64,000 bases of DNA from Mesaphorura yosii. Lineage: Eukaryota; Arthropoda; Collembola; Poduromorpha; Tullbergiidae. The notes beneath the pieces were generated by a model. That model had not been told where the DNA came from, searched no databases, and saw only the letters and a program-made list of their open reading frames with translations. The position numbers were made by a program, and so were the translations under genes. The DNA lies in assembly GCA_009869945.1 (NCBI GenBank), contig WIXG01000074.1, positions 62,001 to 126,000 of the forward strand. The letters run 5' to 3'. The stretch's first letter is position 1; each line of letters starts with the position of its first letter. This document shows positions 1 to 63,197 of this stretch, piece after piece.

Positions 1-2870
1 TTACATGAAATTTGGATACAGGCGGCTCAGGCTTCGAGAGAGCAGGCTCGGCAGGGCTGCAATTAAAGTTGATACCATTACGATTCGAGTGCGCCCAGGC
101 CGAGGTTGAATCGTGGTCGTAAAATTATGCGGTTTGAATTTGGCATGCAGCGTGGCACAGCTTACAGTAAATGTACAAATACGAAGAAATACCAAGAAGA
201 GAAACGATGATGATGAATTGTAAAAGGCAAAAGGAAAGTCTATCATGGTTCGATCCTGCTGTGCTTTTGTCAAGAAACCCAACGTGGTGTTGGCAATGTT
301 TGCCACTTCACTTGTGCACTGCGCAGACCAGGCTGCTCGATTAAGAATCTGGCAAAAGGCAAACAGACAACTACAACTGCTGATCTGCGGTACGAGAAAC
401 TGAAAGGGAAACTTTTGCCTAATTCCAAGGGAACTCACAAAATCGTGCAAAAAATTAGACCCATCATGGATCTATTGCTTGGATCGATATGAGATTGAAA
501 GGTTTGTTCATTTTAAGATAACCTTTAAAAACAATACTTTTTCCTGAATCCAACAATAAATTACCATTTTTATTATGCAGGCTGAGAGGAAGTTGATTAA
601 ATTTTGTGATCGTAGGCTTTTTGTATTCCTGGAAGTCAAATACAGAAATAAAGAGTAGAAGAGGAGCGACCGCCTTCTCAAAATTGAAATCAAGCACCTA
701 ATTAGAGAGGATCTGCCGAGTACCTCAGTCTAGTGAAAGAAGCACAAGGAAAAAGAAGCCGCATGATTAATTTATGACCTCACAACTTCAACAACTGCGT
801 CTCACCCTTCTTCCACGAACTCCACCGTGTTTTACACCCTTTCATCTCACAATTCTCGCTCTCGTCTTGCCGCTGTCTGTCTTGCTTGATTATGATTACG
901 AGTTCCAACTGTGTAACGTTCAAGTTCAAGTTCAACAATGATGTCGGTAATGGAGTTCAAGCCACGAAGTTCAGCAGGGTGCAAAGCAGTGCCTGCGTGC
1001 TCTGTCTCCATTAAATGGCATCAATTTCTTAATCAGGCCGTGAACTGTTGTTTGGTAGCAATTTGATTTGATTGACTTCTTTGATTAAGGATTAAGACCG
1101 ATTCGATCAAGGCAATCAAGAGATCATATTTTGAAGAGGTTCATGTGTGTTCGTGGCGTAAATTGTAACATGCTGTTCCAAACCAATTCTCCAACTTGAG
1201 TCGCCAACATGAAAAGCGTGCTCGTGTTCGCAATCACGATAGAATATTCTAATCCCACTATTTTGAATCACCGTTTCAAGTTGAATGACAGAATACAAAA
1301 TAGCAATAATTTGGGACAATTGATGAGGACGACTGCGGAGACACGACGGTCGAAAATATGAAGTTTAGGCAACTGAACTATCAACAAGCCACGTGTCACT
1401 TTGTTCAATCAACCATCAACGAGTTATGGGATTAGTGGGTTAAAGCTGTCTCTCGTGCAATGCAGCCTTCGCTTGCTTGCTGCGTTGCTCACGATTAAAG
1501 AGCACTCATGCTCACGTTTCAAGTTGATAATTCACATTTCGATTCAGAGAGTGTTCACAGACGCTTTCTTTCCCTGTCTGCGCCCGAGCCTGAGTCAAGT
1601 GCAGTGCATGAATTATTGCACTTGCTAAATGTGAATGTGAATTTATGGCTATTCGTTTGAAAGCTGAACAAGGAAAAATACGGCGGCGACGGTGACAGCG
1701 GCATAGCCTGGGAAAATATTTTGTTCATCAAGAATTGCTGAACTGCATGAAAATGAAATGAAACGAAGGCTGTGCTGTGCCCTGAAACCAAAATCCCGTT
1801 GACTTTATTTACACGTTGCTAATCACGAACAATCAAGTATAATGCTTGGCAGAAGGTTGCCTTTACGCTGGACGTACGTTCGCTGAATTTCAAGTGAAGT
1901 TTCCTGATCTGGTCGGCATAAATATTCACAGCCACACTGATAAATGCTAATACAAGCCTAATGAGAGCAAAATGGCAAAACGTTGCCGCTGCGCTGCACA
2001 GGATAATCACCTGAATCAAGAGACAATGTGATTGCCCAAAGGGATGCTAATCAAGTCGAAATAAATACAATTGGCATACAATGGTCGAAGAGGTTGCTAC
2101 AAGTTACAAATACAAAATATATGTAGGCTCAAATCGCTCAGCACTTGATTCCTGAGGTATTCGACAATTTTTGCAAACCAAAATTGGTTTATTTGTATTT
2201 TAAAGAATACTGATAGCAAAATCGTCAACGCTAACATTTTGTACTGTGTGTATAAAAATTGTGCAACCCTTGGTGGTGTCATTTTATACGCTCAAGCGAT
2301 TTCATATTCGATTCAATGGAGTTCTTTATTCTTTACTTCCCTTCCCGAGTTGGACTCGCACGAGAGATGAAGATTGATATCTGCTGCTCCGTCTGTGTCT
2401 GTCTGTGTCTTTTCCCTTTCGCCCAAGGAGTGTGTTTTCGTGGGTGAGTCGCCCAATGAGGACCATACCTGAGACAACTCATGCGCTCCGCCTTAACCCT
2501 TACTGCGACTATTGCGTAATACGAATCACATCGGCGTACGTAAATATTGGCATGAAACTCACATGAATTTCATACAGCCCAGAGCCCAAGCTCAAGCGCA
2601 GTGCGATGTCAATTCGACATCGACAGAATTCTTTTTCATTTTGTGCTTCATATTTTCGTATTCGTATTTCTCAGCAAGATGATCCTGCTTGCTCTTGCTT
2701 CGTGGGTGGGAATCGACGCAACGGAGCTAAAATCGTGAAAGCTTGTTAGGATTTCGGAATTTCGTAATCGCAAGTGCAAGTTTATTGAGCGATTACTTCT
2801 TCTGCCTCCATAACTCGTGAAATTCACTGTGTAACTGAGAGTGCGTTATTTCCGACTTTCTCAAATCCCG
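1..2870. other. Non-coding region upstream of the Arrowhead-like gene
   Basis: No exon could be supported on either strand. Open frames here, including a 149-codon minus frame at the left edge, show no recognisable domain and no matching splice phases. The stretch is AT-rich with scattered TAATTA-type motifs towards its right end. It is the likely place for 5' untranslated exons, promoter and enhancers of the LIM-homeobox gene, but nothing specific was identified. Confidence 0.5.
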
Positions 2871-5800
2871 ATGGATCTCAGCAGTGCGCCAGAAGAAAAC
2901 AATAACATCAATTCTAAGGTGGTAGCACTTTGTCTTAATTATGATTAATTTCATTCGAATCCCATCTGTAAATTAATTAGCGATTAGTCTGACTTGCCTT
3001 TTGTTTGATTTTAAGATCGATCCCAGTATTTCCACATGCAAGGGATGTGGCTTCCCAATATACGACAGATTCATGTTGCAAGTCAGCGGATTCTCATGGC
3101 ACATCAAATGTCTCAAATGTTCCTCGTGTGGAATACTCCTGGAAAATGAGTCAATTTGCTACCTGAGAAATTCAGTCGTATTTTGCCGGACCGACTATCA
3201 AAGGTAAGGTCGAACTCTGACTTTCTGCTACTTGGCACGGGCAAAAAATTTCATTCGTACATCTGCATAGTGCAATGATGCATGCTCACGGCTCACTCGG
3301 TAATAAGTTCAAATTAAGAATGATAATATTTTCGCCCACATTGTCATTTACTTGTATATTGTCACTTTAACTCAATTACAAAGCAAAAACACAAAAGCTT
3401 GGCATCTTTATTTTCCTAAAATACTGCATACATTTTCCGAGTGAATGGCACAGGGTTTGGCGCGCGTATCAATCAGCAAATACAATTACTCAAATAATCA
3501 ACACCTATTCAGTGGACCCAAACCCCAAATAATCCAATTACCACCCATACAATGCAATGTGTGCGCCGCAATTGGTTGAATGGATGGGTATTTTATATTT
3601 TCTACATGCTTGTTAGCGAATGCAAGAAAAGACAATCCAATAAAATTTAAAAAGAACACAAAGAGCACAACATACAAAATAAATTCTGAGCAACACGACA
3701 GGAACCGAAACGCTGGATTTCTGGAGAGACTGCGCGTGTGGTAGAAGACAAATTTGAACGGTGTGAGGAAACTGCTGGCCTTATCTCAAAGCGTGGAAGT
3801 TGATCAACATTTTACATCTAATGAAATTGTAGAAGATGAACGAATATTCGAGCCTTAATCCGTGTCAGCCTTGAATTTTTCGTTTCTGTGAATAAATTTT
3901 CTCTTTTTGTTCCATGTGAATTTCGCCCGGACAAATTTTCGACTCGCTGTTTCACTTTCTCCATTCTTCTTTTGTTAGTTTTTCAAATCACATCCTTTTG
4001 ATTTGTGAAGCGAAAAAAGACGAAATGTAACAATTGGATGTGAGAATTTGCATTTTCCAGAAAATCCAATACGCAGCGTACGAACACCGAGCTCGAGCTA
4101 GTGCATGGAACGGGAAACGGCAAATTAGATTTGGAATTGTAAAAAAAGAAATATCCGAGGACGAGAATTGAAAGGAAATTTAGAATTCATAAGCTTTCGT
4201 CTTTTGTATTTGCGCTTTGTGCGTTGCGCTCGTTGCTCGGCACGAATTTATGCTTTTCGAGCGAGTTCAATCTGAATTCTAAAGTTTAATTTTTATTTCG
4301 TATTCTTGTTTGACAAGGTTGTTCTTCACAAAATGTGCTAAATGCTCCCGCCCAATTTGCGCATCCGACTGGGTGCGGAGAGCCCGAGACCAAGTCTATC
4401 ATCTCGCGTGCTTTGCGTGCGATGGCTGCAAGCGGCAACTATCGACGGGGGAACATTTCGCACTAGCCGAAGATAAGGTCCTTTGCAAGCTACATTTTCA
4501 AGAACTGTTTGACGATGGCCACACGTCCAACGAAGGTGAGAAAACATCAATGCAATCGAAAGACTCAACTTTAAGCTAACTCGGCTATCTTGAGCTTTTG
4601 CTTCTATTTCGACGGGCAGCAAGTAATTGAAGAGGCTTCCATTTAAGGCCATTTCGTACCACTCATAAATTAGAAAGTATCACTGCTTGCGTCTGTTGAC
4701 ATAAAAAGTTTGTCGAGACTTTACTTCATTTGTCATCCTATTCAGACTCCTAATTTCTTTTGAAGTTGCTTCGTGCATTTGACAAAATATTTTGATTTTT
4801 TACTTCCTAACTCGATTTAACATTCTCGTATTTTGCATTTCTCTAAAGTATTTCTGCATAGACGAGATCGAAATAGATTAGGCAGGCTGAATCACTCCTT
4901 CTCGTAGTTGTAATTTCATGTTACGTACACAGCAGATCATAATTTTGTCTATTTTGTGCTTTGTTTCCAATCCCCTTTCCATATCGTAGACAGTTGCGAA
5001 GACGGAGACGGATCCTCCTCCTCGTCGAGTAAATCGAAGACGAAGCGCGTGCGCACAACTTTCACCGATGAGCAGCTGCAAGTTCTCCAGGCCAACTTTC
5101 AGCAAGATTCGAATCCCGATGGGCAGGTACGTGACTCAAAATACGGATAGACGGAGATTCAACAATCACCACGCTACCAGGCTCCACCGAATTTATGACT
5201 TAATACGCATGCTTTTAGGACTTGGAGCGAATAGCCCAGATAACTGGGTTATCGAAGCGCGTAACACAAGTCTGGTTCCAAAACTCGAGAGCCCGTCAAA
5301 AGAAGCATATGGCGAAACAAAAGAAGAATTTTCATCATCACAACAATCAACATCATCTGCTACAGCATCATAATAATGCCGGTAAGCGCACAAACTGTTT
5401 CCGTTTCAGTCTCATTAGCGGATATTTATTACGTTTCGTTATGAAAAACAAATCCAATGCCAATACGAGATGATTCGTATTGGATGCGCATGACAGAGTA
5501 GGATTATTAATTCGAACTGTCTTCTTTGCCACGACTCGGCAATTTCCGACTTCGACTGAGTGCACCTGAATAGAAATCTTTTCGGTTTCTTGATTGACTT
5601 CAAGAAACAAGCACTTTACCTACAACGTTGCCTGCGCAGTGATGCGGCACTTCAAAACACACATAAAGAAGTCCTTTTACCTGCGATGGGACATACCACG
5701 ATATTCATTTGATCAAAAACTCTCATTTTTCTTCTCCTGTTTGTGTGCAGGAAGAAAAATGACTTAAAAATATACCTCCATGTCTTGTCTCACTTGTCTG

Positions 5801-5947
5801 GGCTTCCTTACATTTAACCACATGAAATATGATTTTCTTACAGAAAGTTCATCCTTCGAGAAGCCCGCCCTCCACACCTCGCAACTGTCTGACTCGGACT
5901 CAGCGTCAGGAGCCTCGCCACTCACAATGCTGTACACCTTCAATTGA
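2871..5947 (+). CDS. Awh: Arrowhead-like LIM-homeodomain transcription factor (LHX6/8 class)
   Basis: DNA-binding developmental regulator acting in the nucleus; in flies Arrowhead controls imaginal and histoblast precursors and a subset of neurons. Six exons: 2871-2918, 3016-3203, 4318-4535, 4990-5126, 5219-5381 and 5844-5947, all phase-consistent, giving 285 residues; fly Awh is of similar length. Exon 2 holds LIM1 (CKGC, SWHIKC, CSSC, then a late Cys and Asp). Exon 3 holds LIM2, including the family signature [20 protein letters not shown]. Exons 4 and 5 hold the homeodomain, from [20 protein letters not shown] to [13 protein letters not shown], with Gln50 and Asn51 present. A Ser-rich linker precedes the homeodomain and a His/Asn-rich stretch follows it. 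The C-terminus ends LTMLYTFN. The first exon ([16 protein letters not shown]) is the weakest call because its donor is GTGGTA. Two introns end in AAG rather than CAG or TAG. The family call is firm; the exact start is not. Confidence 0.93.
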
Positions 5948-5956
5948 TCGTCGAAT

Positions 5957-5962
5957 AATAAA
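5957..5962 (+). terminator. Poly(A) signal of the Arrowhead-like gene
   Basis: AATAAA starts 10 nt after the TGA stop at 5945-5947. This is a very short but plausible 3' UTR; further signals downstream could be used as well. Confidence 0.5.
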
Positions 5963-8900
5963 ATGCTGAGTCATTCCTATGAGCGTTTATCACTTGTAAT
6001 CCGCTGTAAAGCTGTAATATTGTTAGCACAGCGTTTGGAATGCAAGATGAAGAGTCGGACGTCTCAAGATTTTAAGAGCCAAGAAAAGGAGGCCAGGCCA
6101 TGCCCACAAATCACCGTCATCAACCCGAAAATCAACCAACCGAACTGAATTAAAGCAAGCATTGCATTGACTTCAGAAGATTTGAAACAAGTTCCGCCAT
6201 TAATTACCCAAGTACAAGAAGAGTACGTTTGCATTTTTTGTCTCATTAGTCAATAGGGGACATTTTAACAAGCTTTAATTGGAAAATCTTGGAATAAAAA
6301 AGTCGAATTTATTGGATCAACCATTGTTTATGAAAATGGGCATTGATTTATGAGAATGAATTTATTATTTTAGCGATAAAATCATGTACGACAATAAAAA
6401 CAATCTCGACCGATCTCTTCGGAACCTCATCTCATTCGAGAAAAAGCACGAGGAATGACACTCACATTTTTAGGATTCAGTGTTAAAATGGAAAATGATC
6501 TCTCCTGCGTCTATTTGATTTCGTGACACTCCATTAATAATAATTCATGTATAAAAATACTTTTAAATTATTTGTATGAGTACAACTACAGCAAAGCATT
6601 GTGCATTGCATTGGATCTTGGATGTTTGCAGAGTGACACAACAATAACAACATAAAAAACGAATGCAGTCGTAGCAGTATTCGTATAAAAAGAATGGCAG
6701 TGAGATAGCAAAAGATATGGAACATTCGAATTCGAACATTATTTTCATTTCAATTCAATTTTCGATTGTTGCTTGCTGTAAAATACTGCATGCATGTTCC
6801 CAGACACGAGATACTCGATCGGATAAGAATTTACGTTGGGGATTGAGCAGGTACGATATTGTAATTGTAATGGAGACGCGGTCGCAGGCGCAGACGGAGG
6901 CATTACGTGTTTGGCGTTCAGCGTTTTATATGCATGCGATATCAAAGTGCGTTTCCTGCATAGCATTTTTTGTTCTGTCGAGTTAACAATTGAGTTAATG
7001 AAGGAAGACGGGAAAAAATTAAACGAGGAACCTCGAGCACATCACCACACTACTGAAGTCATAGCTGTATAACCACGTTAAAGAGGAATGGGCCGTACTT
7101 TTAATATTTCTTTCGGTATCGAGCCTGAGTCTGAACGCTGGCTTCGTATTTGAGTTGATAAATTATCATTTTCTTAGACGTTGACCACAAAAGCGCAAAT
7201 TCACGTAACGTAACCCTTGCGCAACTTGAAATTATTCTTCTACAAGCCGCCACCACCGCAATCGTCACAATGACATACTTGATTGAGGGCGCAGTGGATT
7301 CTGTGCTTTTAATACTGGGCAGCAAAACATTTCTGAATGAGTAACTCCAATCCACCCTGATTTCACGATTCCACCCTCTGCTCTGCCGCATGCTCGACTG
7401 TGTCTCCCGATCCATTGTAATTAGGCTCAATTTAGGATGCAGAAAATTGGGAAACACCGAAGTGTATAATGCGCCTCGGCAGGGGGCTGCAGTCACCACG
7501 ATTTGTTAAACCAGACTGATTTTTCGGATCTTTTGTTGTCTGATTCCTCTTGCTCAGTGCGTGCACATTGCGTATTACGGAATAAAAAATGCTCGCAGCA
7601 GCTAATTCGTTTATCTGTATCGTCAAGCCAAGTTGCGAGTTGCACCGCACCGGGTACCGTTTTTACGTGAGGCCATGTGAGGCGTAAATAATTTATTGAT
7701 TGGTTGTAATTCTCGCTGATAATCTCGTCCAGCGCATTTGCGTTTTCATTTGCATGTGTATTTACAGAACGACAAATGGGAGTTGTTTGGGCGAGATTTT
7801 ATTAAGGTGGATTCTTGCATTGCATTGCGTGTAATCCTGTCCTGAATAAACTGAACGTAATTGACTGGGTAAACAAAGGACAGCAAATGTTACAAATACG
7901 TAACAATCCCTGGTAATATCATTTGCGAGGCAGTCGATGCGATACACTGCTAAAATGAACAGAAAAGGGGCCGAACTCGAACTCGCTGAACAAGACGAAC
8001 GCGTCGCCCCAGCCCAAGTTTTCTATTCTTCCGTGTTGGCGTTGAGCTGCTGCCGCTTGTTTCGTTGGTATTGGCGTGTCCTGCATTATAAATCGACAGA
8101 GCGGAGAAAGTTGTACGATTTGCTGTGTCGCGTAAAGAGAAATTCAGAAACTCTGTCCTGCTTTCCCTCGATACAAATAAAACGAGTGCAGAACGAAAAT
8201 ATCTCAGCAGAGCGGGCGATTCCCCTTCAAGTTTCTATTCAGGTCCAACTGAACTCTCGTTCTCGTTCTTGAAGGAGATAATTCAATTTTTGATCAAAAC
8301 TATGACCCACGCCGTGGCATGCGCCTGGAATCTGGAATTATCTTGAACAATTTCTCGCAGCACAAGCACAATGAATTCACGTGAACGTGTACAATGTATG
8401 GATTCATTCACTCAGTGTAGAGTTCACGATGAACTGCGAAGTCCACCAGTCCAACATCAAATTAAATCAGGCGCGCCTGTACCAGTTCGAGACTTAAGAC
8501 TTAAGAGTCCTCAAAAGTGTATTCACTGGAAACAAGAGTCAAACTACTAAATGCTGGATACTGGAGTGGATGAGTCAAGGACGACTCTTTTAAAACAGCC
8601 TGCAGTCTACTGCAGTCAATTTTAACCTTGCTATATATCCTTATTGACTACATGAAATACAGAAGTACACCGAAGAAATTTTTCGAAAGCCGCTCGTTTA
8701 AAGCAATTTCAGTTAGACAACAATGCCCAAAGACGTTGATGTTAATTCTCCGATTAATTTAATGCAATGCAGCGCAGTTGGCAGTTCTACGCAGGCTTCG
8801 AGTAATTTACTCACACAAGTTGTAATTATACGTCGGAAGAATGATTCTTAATGAAGTCAGTAGTCGACACAGCACAAGCCATTAAACCATAGGACCTGGT

Positions 8901-10583
8901 GACTTTCTTGCTTTGGTGGTCCAGAAAATAGCACATTTATCAAACGATGGTCGTAGAGTCTACGTCTGAAGTCTGCCGATACCGACAAAGACAAAGCACA
9001 AGCGCACTGATTCACTGATATTCAATGTAACGCCGTGTTGCTATTAAGGCACAGTAGGAAGTTTACCCTTCGGCTCCGCTCCGCTGTGTAATTATTGTTA
9101 CAGTTGATCTTGATTGAAAGTGCATGGCATGGATTGCTCTCGCTCTATTGTCTTAATAATTTGGATACGTTTATTTCGCAATTTAGCTTGATTAAGTCTA
9201 GCAATTAACAAAGAAGGCCTCACCAAGCCGAGACGCCAAGTCGGTGTTTGTATAGAACGTGGAAAACCTCTTGCATTAGTAAATATTCGCTCTTAGTTCC
9301 AAATCCCAATGTTGTAACGTTGAGCCGAAGCCTAAATACAGTCGCTGAGGGTGACGAGCCATCTCTCGAACCTGAAACTAAAGATTTCCAAGTAGCTAGG
9401 CCTGGAATTCATCCGTGACTTGCCACTGTGAGTTGAGATTCCACATCTTTGTCCACGTCCACGCTTCCAGCTTTACTTCTAGTCCAAAGAAGTGCCGTAC
9501 TTGGCAAACATTGTGACCTCCTTCATCTGCATTCTTCTCAATTCAGTCACCGTCTTCGTGTGGCAAATCACGTTTGGGACACCAATATGGTGATGGTAGT
9601 AGGAACAATGACGAACGTGTTGAGTCCATGGTGGGAATTTCTGGAGATTCTTCAGCCGAGAGTAGCACAGATGACACCACGAATTTAGCCTGCCTGTTCG
9701 CAAACAAAGTGCACAGACGAATTAACCTGAGGTATAGATAGCGTTAATAATTATCGCGCACAGCACGAGAATACCTTTGTGGTAATCCCCGAGTAAAAGG
9801 CGTCTGCAACTCTTACAGGAATCTCCGCCACTGATGAAACAAACTACAGGAATCGGTCTTCGTAATTCCGCAGTCCAACGTTTCAGCCCAACGTTGTAAT
9901 GTCCCGGACTGACAGACGTGAATCAATCATCTTTGTCTTCGTGTGCATTGATTTTGTTAATGGAGAATATTTTTATGGTGTCACAATTTTGTCAACTTAC
10001 CCAGGTGTCCCCATGAATTAAAGGTTAGTCTCAAACATCCGGTGCCAGCGCCAGCAGGTAGTTGAAACGGCAGTGTCCAACTTTCAACTGAAAAGTGACC
10101 AACCACCGAATGTTCTAAAGCCCTAAATGAAGTCATGATTATAGCTCATGACCGTGTATTAGATTGAATTTGGTATGAAAATTGGTCGTGGCCAAATTGA
10201 TCACATTTCTCAATGCTGCAGAAACTCATCGCTTTGCTCCTGACGGTCCTTTCGTTTACATTTGCATGTGCGCGTGCACGTCCAAAAGTATGGCCCGTCT
10301 ATCATTACTGTAATAGTTGTGTTTATGTGTGCAATTTTTCATCCATGATTTTTCACCATGAATAAATAAAATCCTGAATAGAAATAAGTTCGATCGTGCA
10401 TGACAAATGAGGTATGAGCACGAGATCGCGATCTTTTCAAAGCATGGGCACGAGCGAAATTGGCTTGCATTGGGAGAAACGCTTGTGCGTTTCATGCTTT
10501 ATGTAGAATGATATGATTGCTTGATTATGATTGGGGATAGATAGTCCGGCAGTAGTAAGCAGTACACAGCTTTTAGACCGTCA
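5963..10583. other. Intergenic region, no gene recognised
   Basis: About 4.6 kb between the plus-strand Arrowhead-like gene and the end of the minus-strand dynein-tail gene. Short open frames occur on both strands (for example 7101-7499 minus and 7937-8272 plus), but none has a recognisable motif or consistent splice borders. I searched specifically for motor-domain exons on the minus strand downstream of the dynein tail (P-loop regions, further linker exons) and saw none. Confidence 0.5.
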
Positions 10584-10589
10584 TTTATT
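10584..10589 (-). terminator. Poly(A) signal of the dynein-tail gene
   Basis: AATAAA on the minus strand, about 60 nt downstream of the TGA at 10651-10653. Its position supports transcription ending here rather than continuing into motor-domain exons. Confidence 0.5.
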
Positions 10590-10650
10590 TAGCAATTCGT
10601 ATTTCATGAGACACACAAAACTTCTTGTACTCCAATTGAGCTTACCAAAA

Positions 10651-13600
10651 TCAAGATCGCTGCTCCTCATCGAATCGAATTTCCATTAAAAATAGATCCC
10701 CAGGAGTCAAGCGATCCGGGTCGAAGTCAAAACGAACACCTAACGTGAAAGGACAGAATTATGCCAACAAATTACAAAAGTCAACACAAAACTTCCGATT
10801 CACCATTCCTGTCGTAGAGTGTCACTCTTTCCAGGGTGCTTTCGTTTCTCAGGTCCATAAAGACGGGAATCGATCTTCTGAATTCCTTCATGGCGGCCTC
10901 GAGCTGTTTGCCAACTTCAGACGAGCGAACTGATTTTGGAAGTTTCCTCAGCTCTTGAAGATAGAACTCAATTCCGTCAGTTAAAAACTGCGCATTCAAT
11001 TCCGTCCACAACACCTGGCCCCAAGAAGCTCGCGCTTCCTGGGTATGTAAAATACATACATGACGAGATAACTGCAAGCTTGGCTTTGTTGTTGGCCCAT
11101 AAGATGCAATTAATTAATGCCCGCGTACCTTCTGACTTTGGTATATGCTGAATAAAATTGAAATCGTGTCCAAGTCTTTCAAGACTGCCAGCAATTCCGG
11201 GTAAAGGCTGCACTCAAGCCCAAAAACCTTCTCCGAGTTTGCCATTGCAACTCTTTTCTGCTCTATTATTTTATACTTTTCCCGAAATTCCTTAAATTGA
11301 CAACGGAATTTAATGATGCACTTCACTTGCATGCGCTCTCACACACTGGCACCTTACTTCCACTAAATCGACACCCCGATCCAAATCGGCACCAACTGAG
11401 CCTGGCCCTTCGTCGAAGTAACTTTTAGCAAAATCCTTGACCAGTTCACGGAAAATACCTCCCTCGTCCTTTGTGATTTTCTGGAATGTTCAAGAAGCAT
11501 GCATTGTGAGTTCTCACTTCACACCAGGCGTGATAAGGCAAGTACTCCTTACAGTAAATTTCATTTTGAGTGGCTGCATTTGTTTATCTACAACTTTAAC
11601 TTCATGAAGCCACAGCATTTGCCACCGGCACCAGATTTCTTCGAGTCGGCCAATATCCTGCTGCGGGAACTGCACGACAAAGAAATTCGACAATGGGGCT
11701 TCCAAGCCACAACTTATGGCCAATGATTCCAATGTCATGAACAAACCTCAATCTCGTACAATTTCAGAACATCATATCGTTTCAGGAGGTCTCTGTAGAG
11801 CCCTTCCACGTAAATCGTGGCGTCTTTGATGGCTTGAATTGTTAAGAATATGTGCTTCATTTCGTCCACATTCTTCGGTAAAACATGAACGTCTCGATCA
11901 TACTCCTACGTAAGCAACCAGTCAAATTACGAAATGTCCTCACAGTTAATTTGTTTAAAATCTTACCGATACAATGAGATCGAGCTCCTTGATGAGTTCC
12001 CGTGAGTTCGCGTGCAAGGCAGCACCCAGCTTGAACACCCATTCTCGCGCATGTCTGCAAATTGCGCTCATCAGTGGCTGCACGTGCAGTTTGATGCAAC
12101 CGAAAACCTTATAAGTTGATATTTCTGTAATCCGTTTTTCGATTCGAGAGTAAAAATCCAATTTCTCGTCGTATGAACCCACAGGAGGTTGCATGCTAGC
12201 AAATTCCTTGACTGTTCTTTCTTTGCTGAAGCGGATCAAGTTCTTGAATTTTCTGAACCTGTTTGAAATGCAACCAAGTGCGTCAGATTAAAAAATACGC
12301 GACCAATTAAATTAAGATTTATTTCAGCATACACACTTTTTCAAATGGATCCAAATGTCTGAGAGAATGGACTGGATATTTTCTTGTATTTTCAAGAACA
12401 TTTGAAGCATTCTAGGAATTCGACCAATTTCCAAGTAGAACGAGTAAATGAAGGGTGGCTGACCTCCTCCCTGAGGCACTGGAGGAGATTCCGTGCAGGA
12501 TGCTCGCATCCAGCGGACGAATTCTTGAGTCCTATGTTTATTATCACGGTAATCAGTGTTTTCAATCGACTTCCTTGACTGTAGCAAGCCCCTTCAGCCT
12601 TTGCCAACTTACCCTTCAACGCAATCTCGAGCTCCTTTCAATACGAGGTTAAAGATTTCGTGCGGTGGAGGATTCAGTCGGATCTCACGAGCGTGAAGCA
12701 CAGCTTCCACATAAAATAAAGGCTCGTTTTCCAATAATCGTTTTTCGTAAACGTACAGGCTTCTGATAACGAATCTATTACAATTCGTCAACAAACTTAG
12801 TGTTTTTATATAATATAACTTAGGAATGAGAGTGAATCGTACTTTCCCATGTACTGAAATATTAACTTTTCCCATCTCGCAAAATAGTGATGGAATGACG
12901 CGTGTTTACCAGTCGAGGAATTCTGAGTCAATGTTTCGAGTTTAACAAACAGCGGTGGCAATCCACGATAGTGAAGCAAAAGTTTCTCCCATATTTTAGC
13001 GCGATGCTTCTCCCAGTATTGAAAGTAGTCCTGGAACAGCCAACCTCAACACTACAATAAAGTGAACCGACAAAAAATATATTAACCATCGCAATTACCC
13101 AGCAATCAAATATTGGAAGGTCATAAGAAGCGGTTTTGTAAGGCGGTTCTTTGAAGAGAACGACATTCTTCATTTCCAGCACACGGAACCGCACGTCTCG
13201 GCCGATTTTGTTTATCTGTGACACAACTCCTCCAAAATGGCCTACTGCGTCGCTGAGAGTATTTGCATAGTCCGCCAGTGCCAACGCTGCCCAGTTCCAG
13301 TGTGTGGCTCCTTGCTCAAAGTGCTTGTCCATTTCCTGGAACAACTTGTCACACAGTTGAGCCTGTTGAAATCCCAAGTACGAATGTCTTGCATGGAAGT
13401 GCATCAAAATAGTATGCAAGATCCCTAATGCACCGACATCTCACCTCCGAAGGGCGTAATTCCAATCGTAGCTTATAATATTTCTCGACGACAGCTTCGA
13501 GTGCGAGAATGTTCGCGGTGTACTGACTTTGCTGGAGTGACACCGTTCGCAACGACTCGGCAATTGGGAAGCCGCCCATTTCCTCCAAAAGCTGGACTTC

Positions 13601-14350
13601 CTGGATAATTTCCAGTATGCCCTCCGGTACATTGACTTTGTAAATGTTTTTGTTCTTGCATACTGTGTAGTTTCGCCCCACTATAAATCAGTTTCACAAA
13701 GCCATCAATTCGAGTTCAGGCCATTTTCAATTCAGCAAATTGTGAAATCTCAACGTACAGTCTTCCTCAGTCGCCGGCACAGAGACAAGGACGTTATCCT
13801 TCAAGTTTGCGGGTAGTGCGTTCACAGCGTTCTCATCCCATTCAGCATACAGCTGGTCTCCATAAGCTCGCATTTCATGGGCTAATTTCAAGTAGTCCTG
13901 CAGGGCCTAAATTAGAATCGAGGCAAAGGACCAAGTAAAGACGAGCTCCAATTAGACACCACAATAGAAACTGCATACCTGCTGAGCAGGGTCAGTGATC
14001 ATCACTTCCTCATCCTTTTTTAATTCTACCATCGGCTTCTTGATCCGATGAAACAATGACTTCATCCACCAAATGCGTCCAGCGATTTTTGGGTGACTCT
14101 CGAGAAGCGGAGGGTCGTCCTTGTTTGCCTGGATTAGTTTGCCAAAGAGCTTCAAAACGTACGTGTCCGCGTGTTCATGACATGGCTCGACCTTTTCTGG
14201 AAAACGTACCTCGAAGATCTCTCGCACATCTTTGAGTTCCTGAATGTAGTTCGTTAAAGCTTCATTCTGTTTTTCCACAATCTGAGTGTGGAGTCCGAGG
14301 ATCCCACCCCTCGAGGCCCCGATAATCGATTTCATAATAACAGACTTCAT
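10651..14350 (-). CDS. Tail-only axonemal dynein heavy chain fragment (DHC_N1 region)
   Basis: Fourteen minus-strand exons: 14350-13979, 13906-13759, 13680-13445, 13362-13099, 13030-12910, 12853-12613, 12531-12334/12333, 12242-11967 (or from 12258), 11905-11747, 11669-11553, 11480-11358, 11290-11129, 11038-10804 and 10739-10651. They total about 913 residues. The order of tail motifs matches dynein heavy chains: IAGRIWWMKSLFHRIKKPM near residue 100, YLKLAHEMRAYGDQLYAEW, RDCVEGTQEFVRWM around residue 465, DEKLDFYSRIEKRI, W-rich helices, SVGADLDRGVDLVE, and ELRKLPKSVR. It ends at the first conserved linker segment (LTPGDLFLMEI), followed six residues later by TGA. Full heavy chains exceed 4,000 residues with a tail near 1,400. 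This gene lacks roughly the first 400 residues and all of the linker, AAA+ ring, stalk and microtubule-binding domain. The start Met (MKSVIMKS) is the first in-frame one before homology begins. One splice junction is abnormal (see findings). It could be a tail-only protein or a decaying fragment; subfamily not assigned. Confidence 0.8.
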
Positions 14351-23600: not shown

Positions 23601-24654
23601 TGAGCGCAGTGGAAGATTTCGGTTTCGGCTACCGAATTTCGTTCGCTCGTGCGACGAGGGTGGCAATAAACGTATGAATGAATCAAACACAAAGTTTGTG
23701 GATCAGTAATTGACGAAATAAACTCGCAATAAATCATACACGTGCGCTAATACATTTGAGGACTGAGCGGGCGGGTCTCGATGGAACCAATTTGATCCCG
23801 ACTGCCTGCCAGACTCCGCATATTTTTTGTTTCGAAAGTTCTCACGTCAGCGGAGCGTCTCGTCTTGTCCCAAGCGAAGACTTTCATAAAATCGATGCTT
23901 GCCTTGCTGCGCCGTGCCTTGCCGTGAATGTCAACAGCAGATACTTTACACTTTGCTTTTGATGCGTTGTTGGTTTCCCTTCACAATGAATCCTTTACAA
24001 TTAACAGAAACTTTGCATCTGCATCAATAATTTGTTTTCAAAGGAGGTCGGGCCAGACTTCGGTTTGGGTTTCGTTTTTGATTGAAAGCCCAGTCTTCAC
24101 CGCATACCTGAACGACCTGAAGATGTAGGATTCCGATACTGTCGGAAGGATGACATGACAGCGACGGCGCCAACATAGCACCGCATAAAATTCCGGCCGT
24201 CTTTGCCTTGAAACAATAATCGAATCGAATCGAAGCGAGTGCTACGAGTTTATAAACTAAACAAAGCAATAGCATTGCATGTTTGTTTTAAAGTTTCCGT
24301 TCACAAAGATCGAATTTCACTTCAGGCAGCAGCTGACTGCAGTAGCACAAAGCAAAACTACGAACTGCAAAACTACAAACACGGAGGCCATATCAATGCT
24401 CTGAAATAAGTTTGAGTCAATTCTATACATGATGCTACTCTTTTATAGACGCACAAAGTGCAAAAGTAAAAAGCACTGATCCTTTAATGGTTTTCCAGAG
24501 TCAAGAATCCTGTAAGATGGAATATGAGAATGGAACTTCAGTGTCGCTGTTTTTGCTCTGGGCTAAATTCTGAAGACTCTCCGATTCTTCCAACAAGCAA
24601 GAGTAGAAACCCAACTTCAGGCCTAACTCCAAGTTAAGCGAAGTCAGTGACAAG

Positions 24655-26668
24655 ATGTTTCTGCGGACAGCTCTGTCTATAATTTTGCTCCTAATGAGTC
24701 CAATTATCATCGCGTGCAACTTGTTAATTCTCTACACATGGTTCAGATTCAAGAGACTTCGCACGCCGTCGAACTTCCTCGTCATTTCACTGTCCTCCGC
24801 GGATCTCGGATTCGGGCTCGTGCTCCCAGCCGCTGTTGCAGTGGATCTGACACTACAACGTGCAGGACACGTTAACGTGTACAGTGATAACAGTGAACGG
24901 AGTGGTGCGGTGAATGATGATCTAATTACAGGCACGGCCGAAACATTAATCAGGAACGTTACGAGCCTAGCCTCGCCCACGACTTCTCCGGTTGCAGGTC
25001 TCGAGTGGACAATTACCGCAGCCACGGCCACAAGCAGCAGCTCGACGGCTAATAATGTCATTAATTTTGAGCCCGAAGGAGCAGCAAGTGGAACAGGCCA
25101 GCATGGGAGTTTTATGAATGCGGACAGCGAGTGCAACGACACATTGTGTATGACTCATTTCATTATCCTCCTAATATTCTGCTCAGCGGCCATTCTGTCC
25201 ATGACGGCAATTGCATTAGATCGACTGATGTCCGTCGCTCAACCGCTCCGCTACAACCACTTCGTCACAATGTCGCACGTGCAAAGATTCGTGTTGTGTT
25301 ATTGGATTTACTCTGTCCTTCTCTGTAGCTGCGTGCCAATTTTAGCTCCGTCTTACAGATCTAATCCCGAAGCACACATTGTTCTCTTAAGTGCTTGCGT
25401 CTACGTCCCGTGCGCTGCTCTGACCACAATGAGCTACTTGTACATTTATTTGATCGCGAGGAGTCACGCGAGAGCAATCTACTCGGTGGAAATATCACTC
25501 AACAACGGGGGACTGATAGAAGCCAGCGACACTTCGGCTTCCACGTCTTCACATCCGCGCTATGGTCTGACGCTAGCTGGCATTGTGTCGGCGTTCGTAC
25601 TGTGTTGGTCCCCAATTCAAGTGTATGCGTTATTTGATGTAATTGCGGGCTCGAGGATCTTGTATCAACACAGTTGGAGGCTTCTGTTGGCAGCTCCAAT
25701 CGTACTGAACAGTCTACTGAATCCTTACTTGTACGCATATCGTTCTTCTGAGGTAAGGTTGTCAGTTTTGTCGGCTAAGCTCGCTAAGCTAAGCTTGATT
25801 AGTAATCGTATTCAATCGAAAATCACTCTAAGAATTTATAGAATTACATTGGAGGGCTTGATCCATTCCTTTCACTTCGGATAGCGCGAATGTAAGTTTA
25901 TAGAAACTTTCATTCAAATTGGAAGGGAATAATGGAGAAAGCAGTAGGCTCAACGGAATAGCTGAATTCATTAAACTTTAAGCTTCATTTACTTCACATT
26001 ATAAAGCCGTAAGAGATATCCTGAAAATCCAAAGGGAAAACATTGAACTCAAAAGAAGCAAGTGTCTCTTTCCTGTTATCATCCTCTTTTCACTCGATTC
26101 GATCAGCCGAGACTCGAGAGATTTCTCTCGTGCTGTTGCTGCGATTTATGCAAAGCGAACGCCAATATTTACTCTACACGCTTCCACTTAACTTTATATT
26201 CTATACCTTCTTTGCTCCAAAGTGGAAAACGATGACTATCAAGGTTGACGATTAAAGTAGAAGCTGAAACCTCGATGATTTGGCAAGTTACGGATAACTT
26301 TATAATTTCTGACTTTGCTAGACTATAGTTTTTGAGCTGATGTCAGCAACTCTCATACTATTTCTAATTTTGTTCTCGTTCTCTCATATCAGATTCGTAT
26401 TGCCATCATCCGAACTGTGGACATCATCATCACGAAAATTACTGGCCGTCCGCCGAAAATCCCAATTTTCATACAGGAGAAAGGCGACTTCACCAGCTGT
26501 GCCTCAAACATTCGGCTGCTGGGCGTCTCACCGACTCAGACAAGTGTCCAATGCAGCGGAGAAGGAACCAATAATGCTGGTGCTAGTACATCACCGATGC
26601 TGATTCCCGAGAATAATCAAAATCATCTCAACTTGTTTATTTGTGATTATCACGTCACGCCTCTGTGA
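24655..26668 (+). CDS. Class A GPCR, adenosine/melanocortin-type (MECA-like) receptor
   Basis: Two exons, 24655-25752 and 26393-26668 (phase 0 junction), 457 residues. TM1 begins almost at the start Met and reads into LLILYTWFRFKRLRTPSNF. TM2 carries LSSADLGFG. TM3 ends SMTAIALDRLMSVAQPLRY, so the usual DRY is DRL. TM5 runs into YLYIYLIARSHARAI, TM6 has the CWSP motif, and TM7 has LNPYLYAYRSSE, an NPxxY variant. The PLRYNHFVT and YAYR motifs resemble adenosine receptors; the ARSHARAI segment and short second extracellular loop resemble the wider MECA clade. The TM2-TM3 loop is about 95 residues and Ser/Thr-rich, with NVT and NDT sequons. Exon 2 gives a cytoplasmic tail ending VTPL, a possible class I PDZ ligand. 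GPCR identity is firm; the ligand is unknown. An upstream exon adding an N-terminus cannot be excluded. Confidence 0.88.
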
Positions 26669-61866: not shown

Positions 61867-63197
61867 GAGTGAAGATTATTTACTTTCGTGGTCTTCCGCA
61901 AATCACTGTTCCATTGCCGTCACGGCGCGAAAAATGTCGGTTCATTCTGAAGCCTTTGACAAACTCAGTCGGCGACCTGATTCAAATGATTCGGACTGAA
62001 GACAAAGGAGTCGACCACATTTCGATACAATCAAAAGGTAACACTACTCCCAAATTTGATGATGGAATTCTTATTTTATTGTTTTATTACGAGTGGCAAT
62101 AAAATGAATCGTTTTTGACCAGATGGTGTTCGAATTGCGTCATCAAACACGATTGAGATGTTAATGGAGCAAGACTTTTCATTGATCGTCAACGATATTT
62201 TGTACGAAGTGGTGACACCGCCGCAAGAAAAACCGTCAAAGGTAAAGTCATGCAATTTCTACAGAAGGCTGCGTCGTGCTGCGCTGCTTGCTGATTATTC
62301 TGAATGATCTCAGCCCTTTTCCTAACGAACATGGCGCCTGGAAATTTTAAGATGTAGGAAGCGTTACTGATCTCTGATACAGCATTTGCATACAGAGTAC
62401 GAACAACGTCGCGTCGCTGTTCCATTTCTTGTCATTTACGATTATGTTGTCTTGCATTTTGCATTTTGCAGGAGGACTTGGAGAGATTGTCTTCTGTGCG
62501 AAATCTAGTGGGTCAATTGTACGCTGCTTTGAATGTAGATGAGCATCAGCTCCGCCTGGAACGTGAAATTCTGGCTGAAATGGAAAAATTGCAGGTCCAA
62601 CTCAATCCACTTGAGGAAAAACGAGCCCAGCTCTCGCAAATCTCGAGCAAAAGAACAACGCTCCTTACTTGGGCCGGGCTCGGGCTCATGTCAGTTCAAT
62701 TTGGAATATTAGCTCGCCTTACATGGTATGAATACTCATGGGATATTATGGAACCCGTGACTTACTTTGTCACTTACGGCACTGCCATGCTCTGCTATGC
62801 ATATTTCGTTCTCACCAAACAAGTAAGTCCAATCTGGCGCACATGAGCCATAAATTATGCCTGCTGTAACTGGCTTGCACTAATTAATCCTTCTCTTGCA
62901 TTTCAGGATTATGTTCTTCCAGAAGTTCGTGATCGCCAATACTTGATCCAGTTTCACAAGAATGCGAAGAAGGTCGGACTCGACGTAGAAAAATACAATG
63001 AACTGAGAAGCAAGATCGCAGTTCTAGAGACTAACCTGCACCGTCTGAGAGATCCGCTCTCGCTCCATCTACCACCGAGCAAATCAAGACCGTTAGACTT
63101 GACAAAGTTGGACAGCCTAGGAGGTGACGCCAGTTTTATTTACCGAGCACAACAAAAGATTCAAGAACTACTGAAAAAGACCAGAAACCCCAGTTAA
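61867..63197 (+). CDS. MCU: Mitochondrial calcium uniporter pore subunit (MCU), N-terminus not found
   Basis: Forms the calcium-selective channel of the inner mitochondrial membrane. Four exons: 61867-62037, 62123-62241, 62472-62822 and 62907-63197, about 310 residues. The first two give the matrix N-terminal domain (GLPQITVPLPSRREKCRF, DGVRIASSNTIEMLM). Exon 3 starts with coiled coil 1 (RNLVGQLYAALNVDEHQLRL), then TM1 around WAGLGLMSVQFGILARLTWY, the selectivity-filter signature WDIMEP with the key Asp and Glu, and TM2 (YFVTYGTAMLCYAYFVLTKQ). The last exon holds DRQYLIQFHKNAKK, a second coiled coil and the C-terminus KKTRNPS. The signature and spacing are those of functional animal MCU. The transit-peptide exon is missing; see the candidate exon at 53074. 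The reading frame enters the first exon with one base carried over. Confidence 0.95.

Follow-up and report, generated by a model that had tools for sequence, protein, structure and literature searches.

The minus strand of a 64,000-nucleotide stretch of the Mesaphorura yosii genome (the window, on contig C74) carries what is, by its sequence, a DNAH10 orthologue cut down to the dynein heavy chain tail and ending just beyond the tail-linker boundary. The gene for this motorless DNAH10 is real, intact and present as a single copy. We consider it probable that it is still working, its likeliest role being a structural one in a headless inner arm f.

Results

Structure of the gene

Fourteen exons between 14350 and 10651 (minus strand) join in continuous phase into one open frame of 913 codons plus TGA, in agreement with the exon count and phase given by the first-pass annotation. 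The exons measure 89-372 nt and the 13 introns, all GT-AG, 61-90 nt; GC3 is 0.52 against an intron GC of 0.39, and the window contains no N bases. The features of the locus are as follows.

Exon 1, 13979..14350, minus strand: ATG at 14350; residues 1-65 precede the DNAH10-aligned part
Exon 2, 13759..13906, minus strand: splice model
Exon 3, 13445..13680, minus strand: splice model
Exon 4, 13099..13362, minus strand: splice model
Exon 5, 12843..13030, minus strand: splice model; end set by homology to DNAH10
Exon 6, 12613..12774, minus strand: splice model and DNAH10 alignment
Exon 7, 12337..12531, minus strand: splice model
Exon 8, 11967..12258, minus strand: splice model
Exon 9, 11747..11905, minus strand: splice model
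Exon 10, 11553..11669, minus strand: splice model
Exon 11, 11358..11480, minus strand: splice model
Exon 12, 11129..11290, minus strand: splice model
Exon 13, 10804..11038, minus strand: lacks the His-Trp of the Arg-His-Trp stretch of the aligned DNAH10 and Chlamydomonas chains
Exon 14, 10651..10739, minus strand: ends ...LFLMEIRFDEEQRS then TGA
GTAAG, donor-like site, 10641..10645, minus strand: directly 3' of the TGA; score 6.4, within the 4.5-10.0 spanned by the 13 real donors
AATAAA, candidate polyadenylation signal, 10584..10589, minus strand: about 60 nt past the TGA

An earlier splice model, with the end of exon 5 at 12910 and the start of exon 6 at 12853, was rejected, as the alignment with DNAH10 carries exon 5 to 12843; the corrected junction aligns gap-free and the score is 515.6 bits, compared to 488.7 for the first model. 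Neither the splice model nor the alignment reveals a stop, a frameshift or a broken splice site within the gene.

The stop codon does follow the LFLMEI motif, at a distance of 8 residues and not of 6 as previously described, and the AATAAA signal was located where the same description had put it. The GTAAG behind the TGA is possibly a relic of the old exon 14 donor; the stop would then have arisen just upstream of that donor, and polyadenylation would now take place in a former intron. A three-frame scan of the minus strand from 10650 to 700 (about 10 kb downstream) yielded no Pfam domain, even with E values up to 1 allowed, consistent with the earlier remark that no motor exons follow in the next 4.6 kb on that strand. 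Since this stretch holds no Pfam-detectable motor remnant and the His-Trp is gone, the truncation does not look fresh.

Several neighbours in the window were named by reading. An HMG-box-like gene with an acidic tail (15956-14817, minus strand) immediately precedes the dynein tail gene on the same strand, and a LIM-homeodomain gene resembling Lhx6/8 (Arrowhead) in its open frames (2977-5473, plus strand) lies downstream on the opposite strand. A 425-residue open frame at 24607-25884 (plus strand) has the look of a rhodopsin-type receptor, and open frames at 62358-63197 (plus strand) resemble the mitochondrial calcium uniporter MCU.

Identity of the encoded protein

Residues 66-906 of the predicted protein are colinear with residues 600-1431 of the DNAH10 chain 9fqr_K2 (515.6 bits; 33% identity, 276/829). 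The runners-up are f-alpha-type protist chains, namely 8glv_Cn (306.5 bits), 9y6s_7G and 9e5c_5h, and outer-arm chains score clearly lower (141.5 bits for the DNAH8-like 9fqr_I3). We take 8glv_Cn to be Chlamydomonas f-alpha, and the mammalian, algal or protist origin of the matched chains is likewise our assumption, the search output naming molecules. Some of the names in PDB entry 9fqr look swapped (the DNAH10-like chain is called RSPH9 homolog, the DNAH8-like one CFAP57 and the DNAH3-like one malate dehydrogenase 1B), for which reason all locus identities given here rest on sequence relations.

In the first-draft protein Pfam recognises positions 337-562 of the 562-position DHC_N1 profile and positions 4-93 of the 403 of DHC_N2; positions 1-336 of DHC_N1 are unmatched in it, and contig C74 shows just positions 360-530 of that profile. 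An N-terminal part is indeed missing, as the first-pass annotation had claimed; the shortfall is 534 to 597 residues (query residues 66, 68 and 67 align to 600, 659 and 664 in three DNAH10 chains) instead of the 400 or so that it had estimated. Neither the window nor contig C74 gave a match to an AAA ring with its AAA1 P-loop, to a stalk or to a C-terminal domain. The proposal of a tail-only axonemal heavy chain is supported.

Copy number

A search of the genome (93.0 Mb, 1127 contigs) with the 913-residue protein returned 18 matches, 14 of them in the window gene; the other four are weak paralogues on C16, C158 (two) and C33, the best with 20% identity and an E value of 2.5e-7. No parent copy was found in the 93.0 Mb. 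Being the sole locus returned besides these, the window gene is no duplicate and is, as far as similarity can tell, the single detectable DNAH10 of this genome, which weakens the decay of a duplicate, put forward at first as the main alternative. The AAA_6, AAA_8 and protein searches of the genome, together with the class of each motor locus, did not find a motor-bearing DNAH10 or DNAH2 either. A search for COX1 gave no match, and the mitochondrial genome is seemingly missing from the assembly. The 66 Chitin_bind_4 matches in the genome are indicative of an arthropod or close kin, and a tardigrade telomere repeat had no match in it.

Dynein heavy chains of the genome

The 31 AAA_6 matches are spread over seven contigs (C298, C158, C607, C45, C12, C193 and C260), the 18 AAA_8 matches over the same ones with C183 replacing C607, and the 18 Dynein_C matches over all of the seven but C607, with one more below the cut-off on C183. 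DHC_N2 and DHC_N1 (22 matches each) add five contigs devoid of AAA_6, AAA_8 and Dynein_C matches, namely C74, C13, C211, C33 and C16. Within the stretches examined, the GPAGTGKTE P-loop is present at all seven motor loci and missing from the five motorless ones. In all, ten loci for axonemal heavy chains were found, half with and half without the motor, besides two motor-bearing cytoplasmic chains; the latter are presumably DYNC2H1, of which C607 and C183 would be two parts, and DYNC1H1 (C260), as judged by reading their open frames. The DYNC2H1-like gene is apparently split over its two contigs, the locus being incomplete in the assembly; every other motor locus spans linker to C-terminus on a single contig. 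The axonemal loci were assigned as follows.

C74 (window), motorless: DNAH10, best solved-structure match, 515.6 bits
C16, motorless: DNAH2, best solved-structure match, 574 bits
C33, motorless: DNAH8/DNAH5 type, with 686.5 bits for a DNAH8-like chain and 669.7 for DNAH5
C211, motorless: DNAH12, 271.9 bits, the next kind reaching 96.9
C13, motorless fragment: DNAH1, 99 bits over 220 residues, modestly ahead of other single-headed chains (86.5)
C298, motor-bearing: DNAH7, best solved-structure match
C45, motor-bearing: DNAH3, best solved-structure match
C193, motor-bearing: DNAH6, best solved-structure match
C12, motor-bearing: DNAH17/9, best solved-structure match
C158, motor-bearing: DNAH5/8 type, 174/647 identities to the DNAH8-like chain and linker reading

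Gene models were built for three of the other motorless loci: 14 exons and 1340 codons for C33, 9 exons and 1189 codons for C16 (one of its junctions is weak, scoring -3.8, and may be an error), and 12 exons and 898 codons for C211. The script accepts GT-AG joins with an open frame only, hence the canonical sites are partly there by construction, and the informative part is that an open GT-AG model exists over the whole tails. On C13 the recognisable piece comprises 263 codons with a stop within the linker, and no tail was recognised in the open frames read upstream of it. A degenerate run of ESEMS-type repeats lies upstream of the same piece (C13:309547-310377).

Relative to the Arg-His-Trp position, and counted by hand from it and from the alignment ranges, the chains end at about -70 (C16), -20 (C33), +35 (C74), +58 (C211) and +196 residues (C13). 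All five ends cluster around the tail-linker boundary over a span of about 270 residues, in a family whose full relatives have about 4000-4700 residues. Because the ends differ among the loci, the five truncations are probably separate events.

Discussion

Retention or decay of the tail

Under neutral drift the window gene would be expected to collect about 3.9 disabling hits per 1% divergence, and the four long frames about 3.6-5.4 each, on the assumption of one indel per 10 substitutions and of 70% of indels being disabling. That 913 codons over 14 exons are open in spite of this argues for retention, as does the recurrence of the motorless state in DNAH2, in a second DNAH5/8, in DNAH12 and in the piece of DNAH1, each on another contig.

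The main rival, which we consider unlikely, is decay in progress, in which selection for motility has been relaxed in the lineage, the motors went first, and the tails are leftovers in which stops have yet to accumulate. It accords with the loss of the N-terminal part of the window protein, with the fact that 5 of the 10 axonemal loci found are hit, and with how fast the tail evolves: 9fqr_K2 and Chlamydomonas f-alpha agree at 289 sites, and the window protein keeps 147 of them, which is evidence against full constraint, since a constrained animal orthologue should keep more. A recent loss of the motors by deletion would likewise leave good tails, and this counts against retention. DNAH1, down to a linker piece with a stop in mid-linker, fits decay better than retention. 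Against decay, long frames can be read as open at four loci (913, 1340, 1189 and 898 codons), and by a rough estimate the probability that all four are intact falls below 5% beyond 0.17% neutral divergence; the Pfam scan of the 10 kb behind the window gene found no motor remnant, and the P-loop is kept in five other axonemal chains. The motorless tail of C33 shares 207/647 columns with the DNAH8-like chain and that of its motor-bearing paralogue C158 174/647, a comparison that covers the first half of the tail and uses a C158 gene model of our own. C33 being the closer of the two, the motorless tail is no faster-evolving, and since C158 evolves fast too, speed singles out no motorless gene.

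It is improbable that the tail is instead a regulatory or dominant-negative subunit, one that tunes the number of arms or acts in preassembly by competing for intermediate chains or docking sites with a full heavy chain. Intermediate and light chains do bind the tail of heavy chains, as stated in an excerpt of PMC2239267, and the genome has other motor-bearing chains; however, no motor-bearing DNAH10 or DNAH2 was found that could act as the competitor, which makes the dominant-negative partner envisaged by the first-pass annotation less likely, and a single-copy orthologue is more simply read as the position-holder itself. That the gene is split, with the motor encoded elsewhere and joined by trans-splicing as the GTAAG directly after the TGA might hint, or that an assembly error has removed the motor, is highly improbable, given that the in-frame TGA comes before that donor, that motor matches occur on seven loci only, each (bar C607/C183) complete on one contig from linker to C-terminus, that five independent misassemblies are unlikely, and that the window has no N.

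A proposed headless arm f

We return to the reading of the window gene as a working gene for a motorless DNAH10, which implies, as we infer, that it is transcribed, translated, assembled into axonemes and under purifying selection. Its product would retain the DNAH10 helical stem, starting at about residue 600 and reaching the point where the linker begins, and would lack the N-terminal part and the whole motor. We propose that this tail assembles with an equally motorless DNAH2 and with the intermediate and light chains of inner arm f into a headless arm f, which would sit at its own place in the 96-nm repeat and maintain the outer-arm links and the docking of neighbours, producing no force. 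The partner does occur as a tail (C16, 574 bits). Assembly with it is uncertain, because the 530-600 N-terminal residues are absent and the N-terminal part is the region where heavy chains pair.

According to excerpts of PMC10266980, the human inner arms are formed by DNAH2 and DNAH10 (f), DNAH1 (d), DNAH12 (a), DNAH3 (c), DNAH7 (b and e) and DNAH6 (g); the tails of d and g make one complex at radial spoke 3, the core of arm f is joined to the outer arms via IC140 and f-beta bundles, its in vitro motility is none or little, CFAP43/44 is its tether, and IC97/DNAI7 is specific to it. This last arm f subunit appears to be encoded in the genome, a further point for retention: Casc1_C, the family of IC97/DNAI7, matches on C155 and C178 with 61.8 and 27.2 bits (cut-off 26.2), and Casc1_N stays below its cut-off of 28.2 on C178, with 27.3 bits, and with 22.4 in a Pfam scan of C178:76500-81400 (minus strand). 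C155:86441-87028 and C178:71196-81257 are possibly two DNAI7/IC97-like genes.

When the human scheme is mapped onto the genome, arms a, d and f come out as motorless and b, c, e and g as motor-bearing. It is conceivable, though we lean slightly against it, that half of the axonemal heavy chains form a headless class, with dummy arms a, d and f kept for docking and outer-inner links while the outer arms, like b, c, e and g, keep their motors. A tail-only chain may be kept since its neighbours dock on the tail, an argument that is weak for arm d, where C13 has no clear tail.

The findings suggest that some dynein arms can persist as scaffolding without motors. If the dummy arms are real, evolution has split the work of a dynein arm as scaffold from its work as motor. 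Provided that the tails are used, the animal is a natural experiment on which of the inner arms are needed as structure and which as engines, and the question of why arm f, with its little or absent motility in vitro, is conserved would become testable.

Comparison with known systems

As far as excerpts tell, a survey of 24 eukaryotes from 2007 built on a C-terminal motor model, used motor residues for its alignment and discarded sequences of <1000 residues as fragmentary (PMC2239267), and a paper on arthropod motor proteins states that dynein heavy chains had been neither analysed nor classified owing to their size and to fragmented genomes (PMC2674883). Natural tail-only chains would be easy to miss where heavy chains are surveyed, as is usual, by their motors and sequences below 1000 residues are dropped. 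Among the matches listed by our literature search, which took in few subscription journals, and as far as their partial texts tell, we recognised no report of natural tail-only or headless axonemal heavy chains, nor one of axonemal dynein loss in tardigrades, arthropods or lineages devoid of flagella.

The window protein resembles DNAH10 of inner arm f (I1) in its colinear tail, with DHC_N1 and the start of DHC_N2, and differs in the absence of the motor, the C-terminus, the N-terminal 530-600 residues and the His-Trp of the Arg-His-Trp stretch. For the f-alpha chain, tail fragments are reported to assemble, and the domains of the f-beta chain were reportedly analysed by Perrone et al. in 2000. 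That work and Liu et al. 2008 are both cited in the reference list of PMC7608865. Mammalian DNAH12, which an excerpt of PMC11949491 describes as lacking the microtubule-binding domain and still mattering through the recruitment of DNAH1 and DNALI1, is likewise a heavy chain without part of its motor, whereas the DNAH12 chains matched here have 3960 residues and the C211 orthologue 898. There is also a likeness with the Chlamydomonas strains oda4-s7 (beta) and oda2-t (gamma), in which the motor domain of an outer-arm chain is absent (PMC11496786, in excerpt). Both are heavy chains without a motor; however, those are laboratory mutations of one chain each with the other heads present, whereas the truncations in M. 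yosii are natural, occur at five loci and include both chains of arm f.
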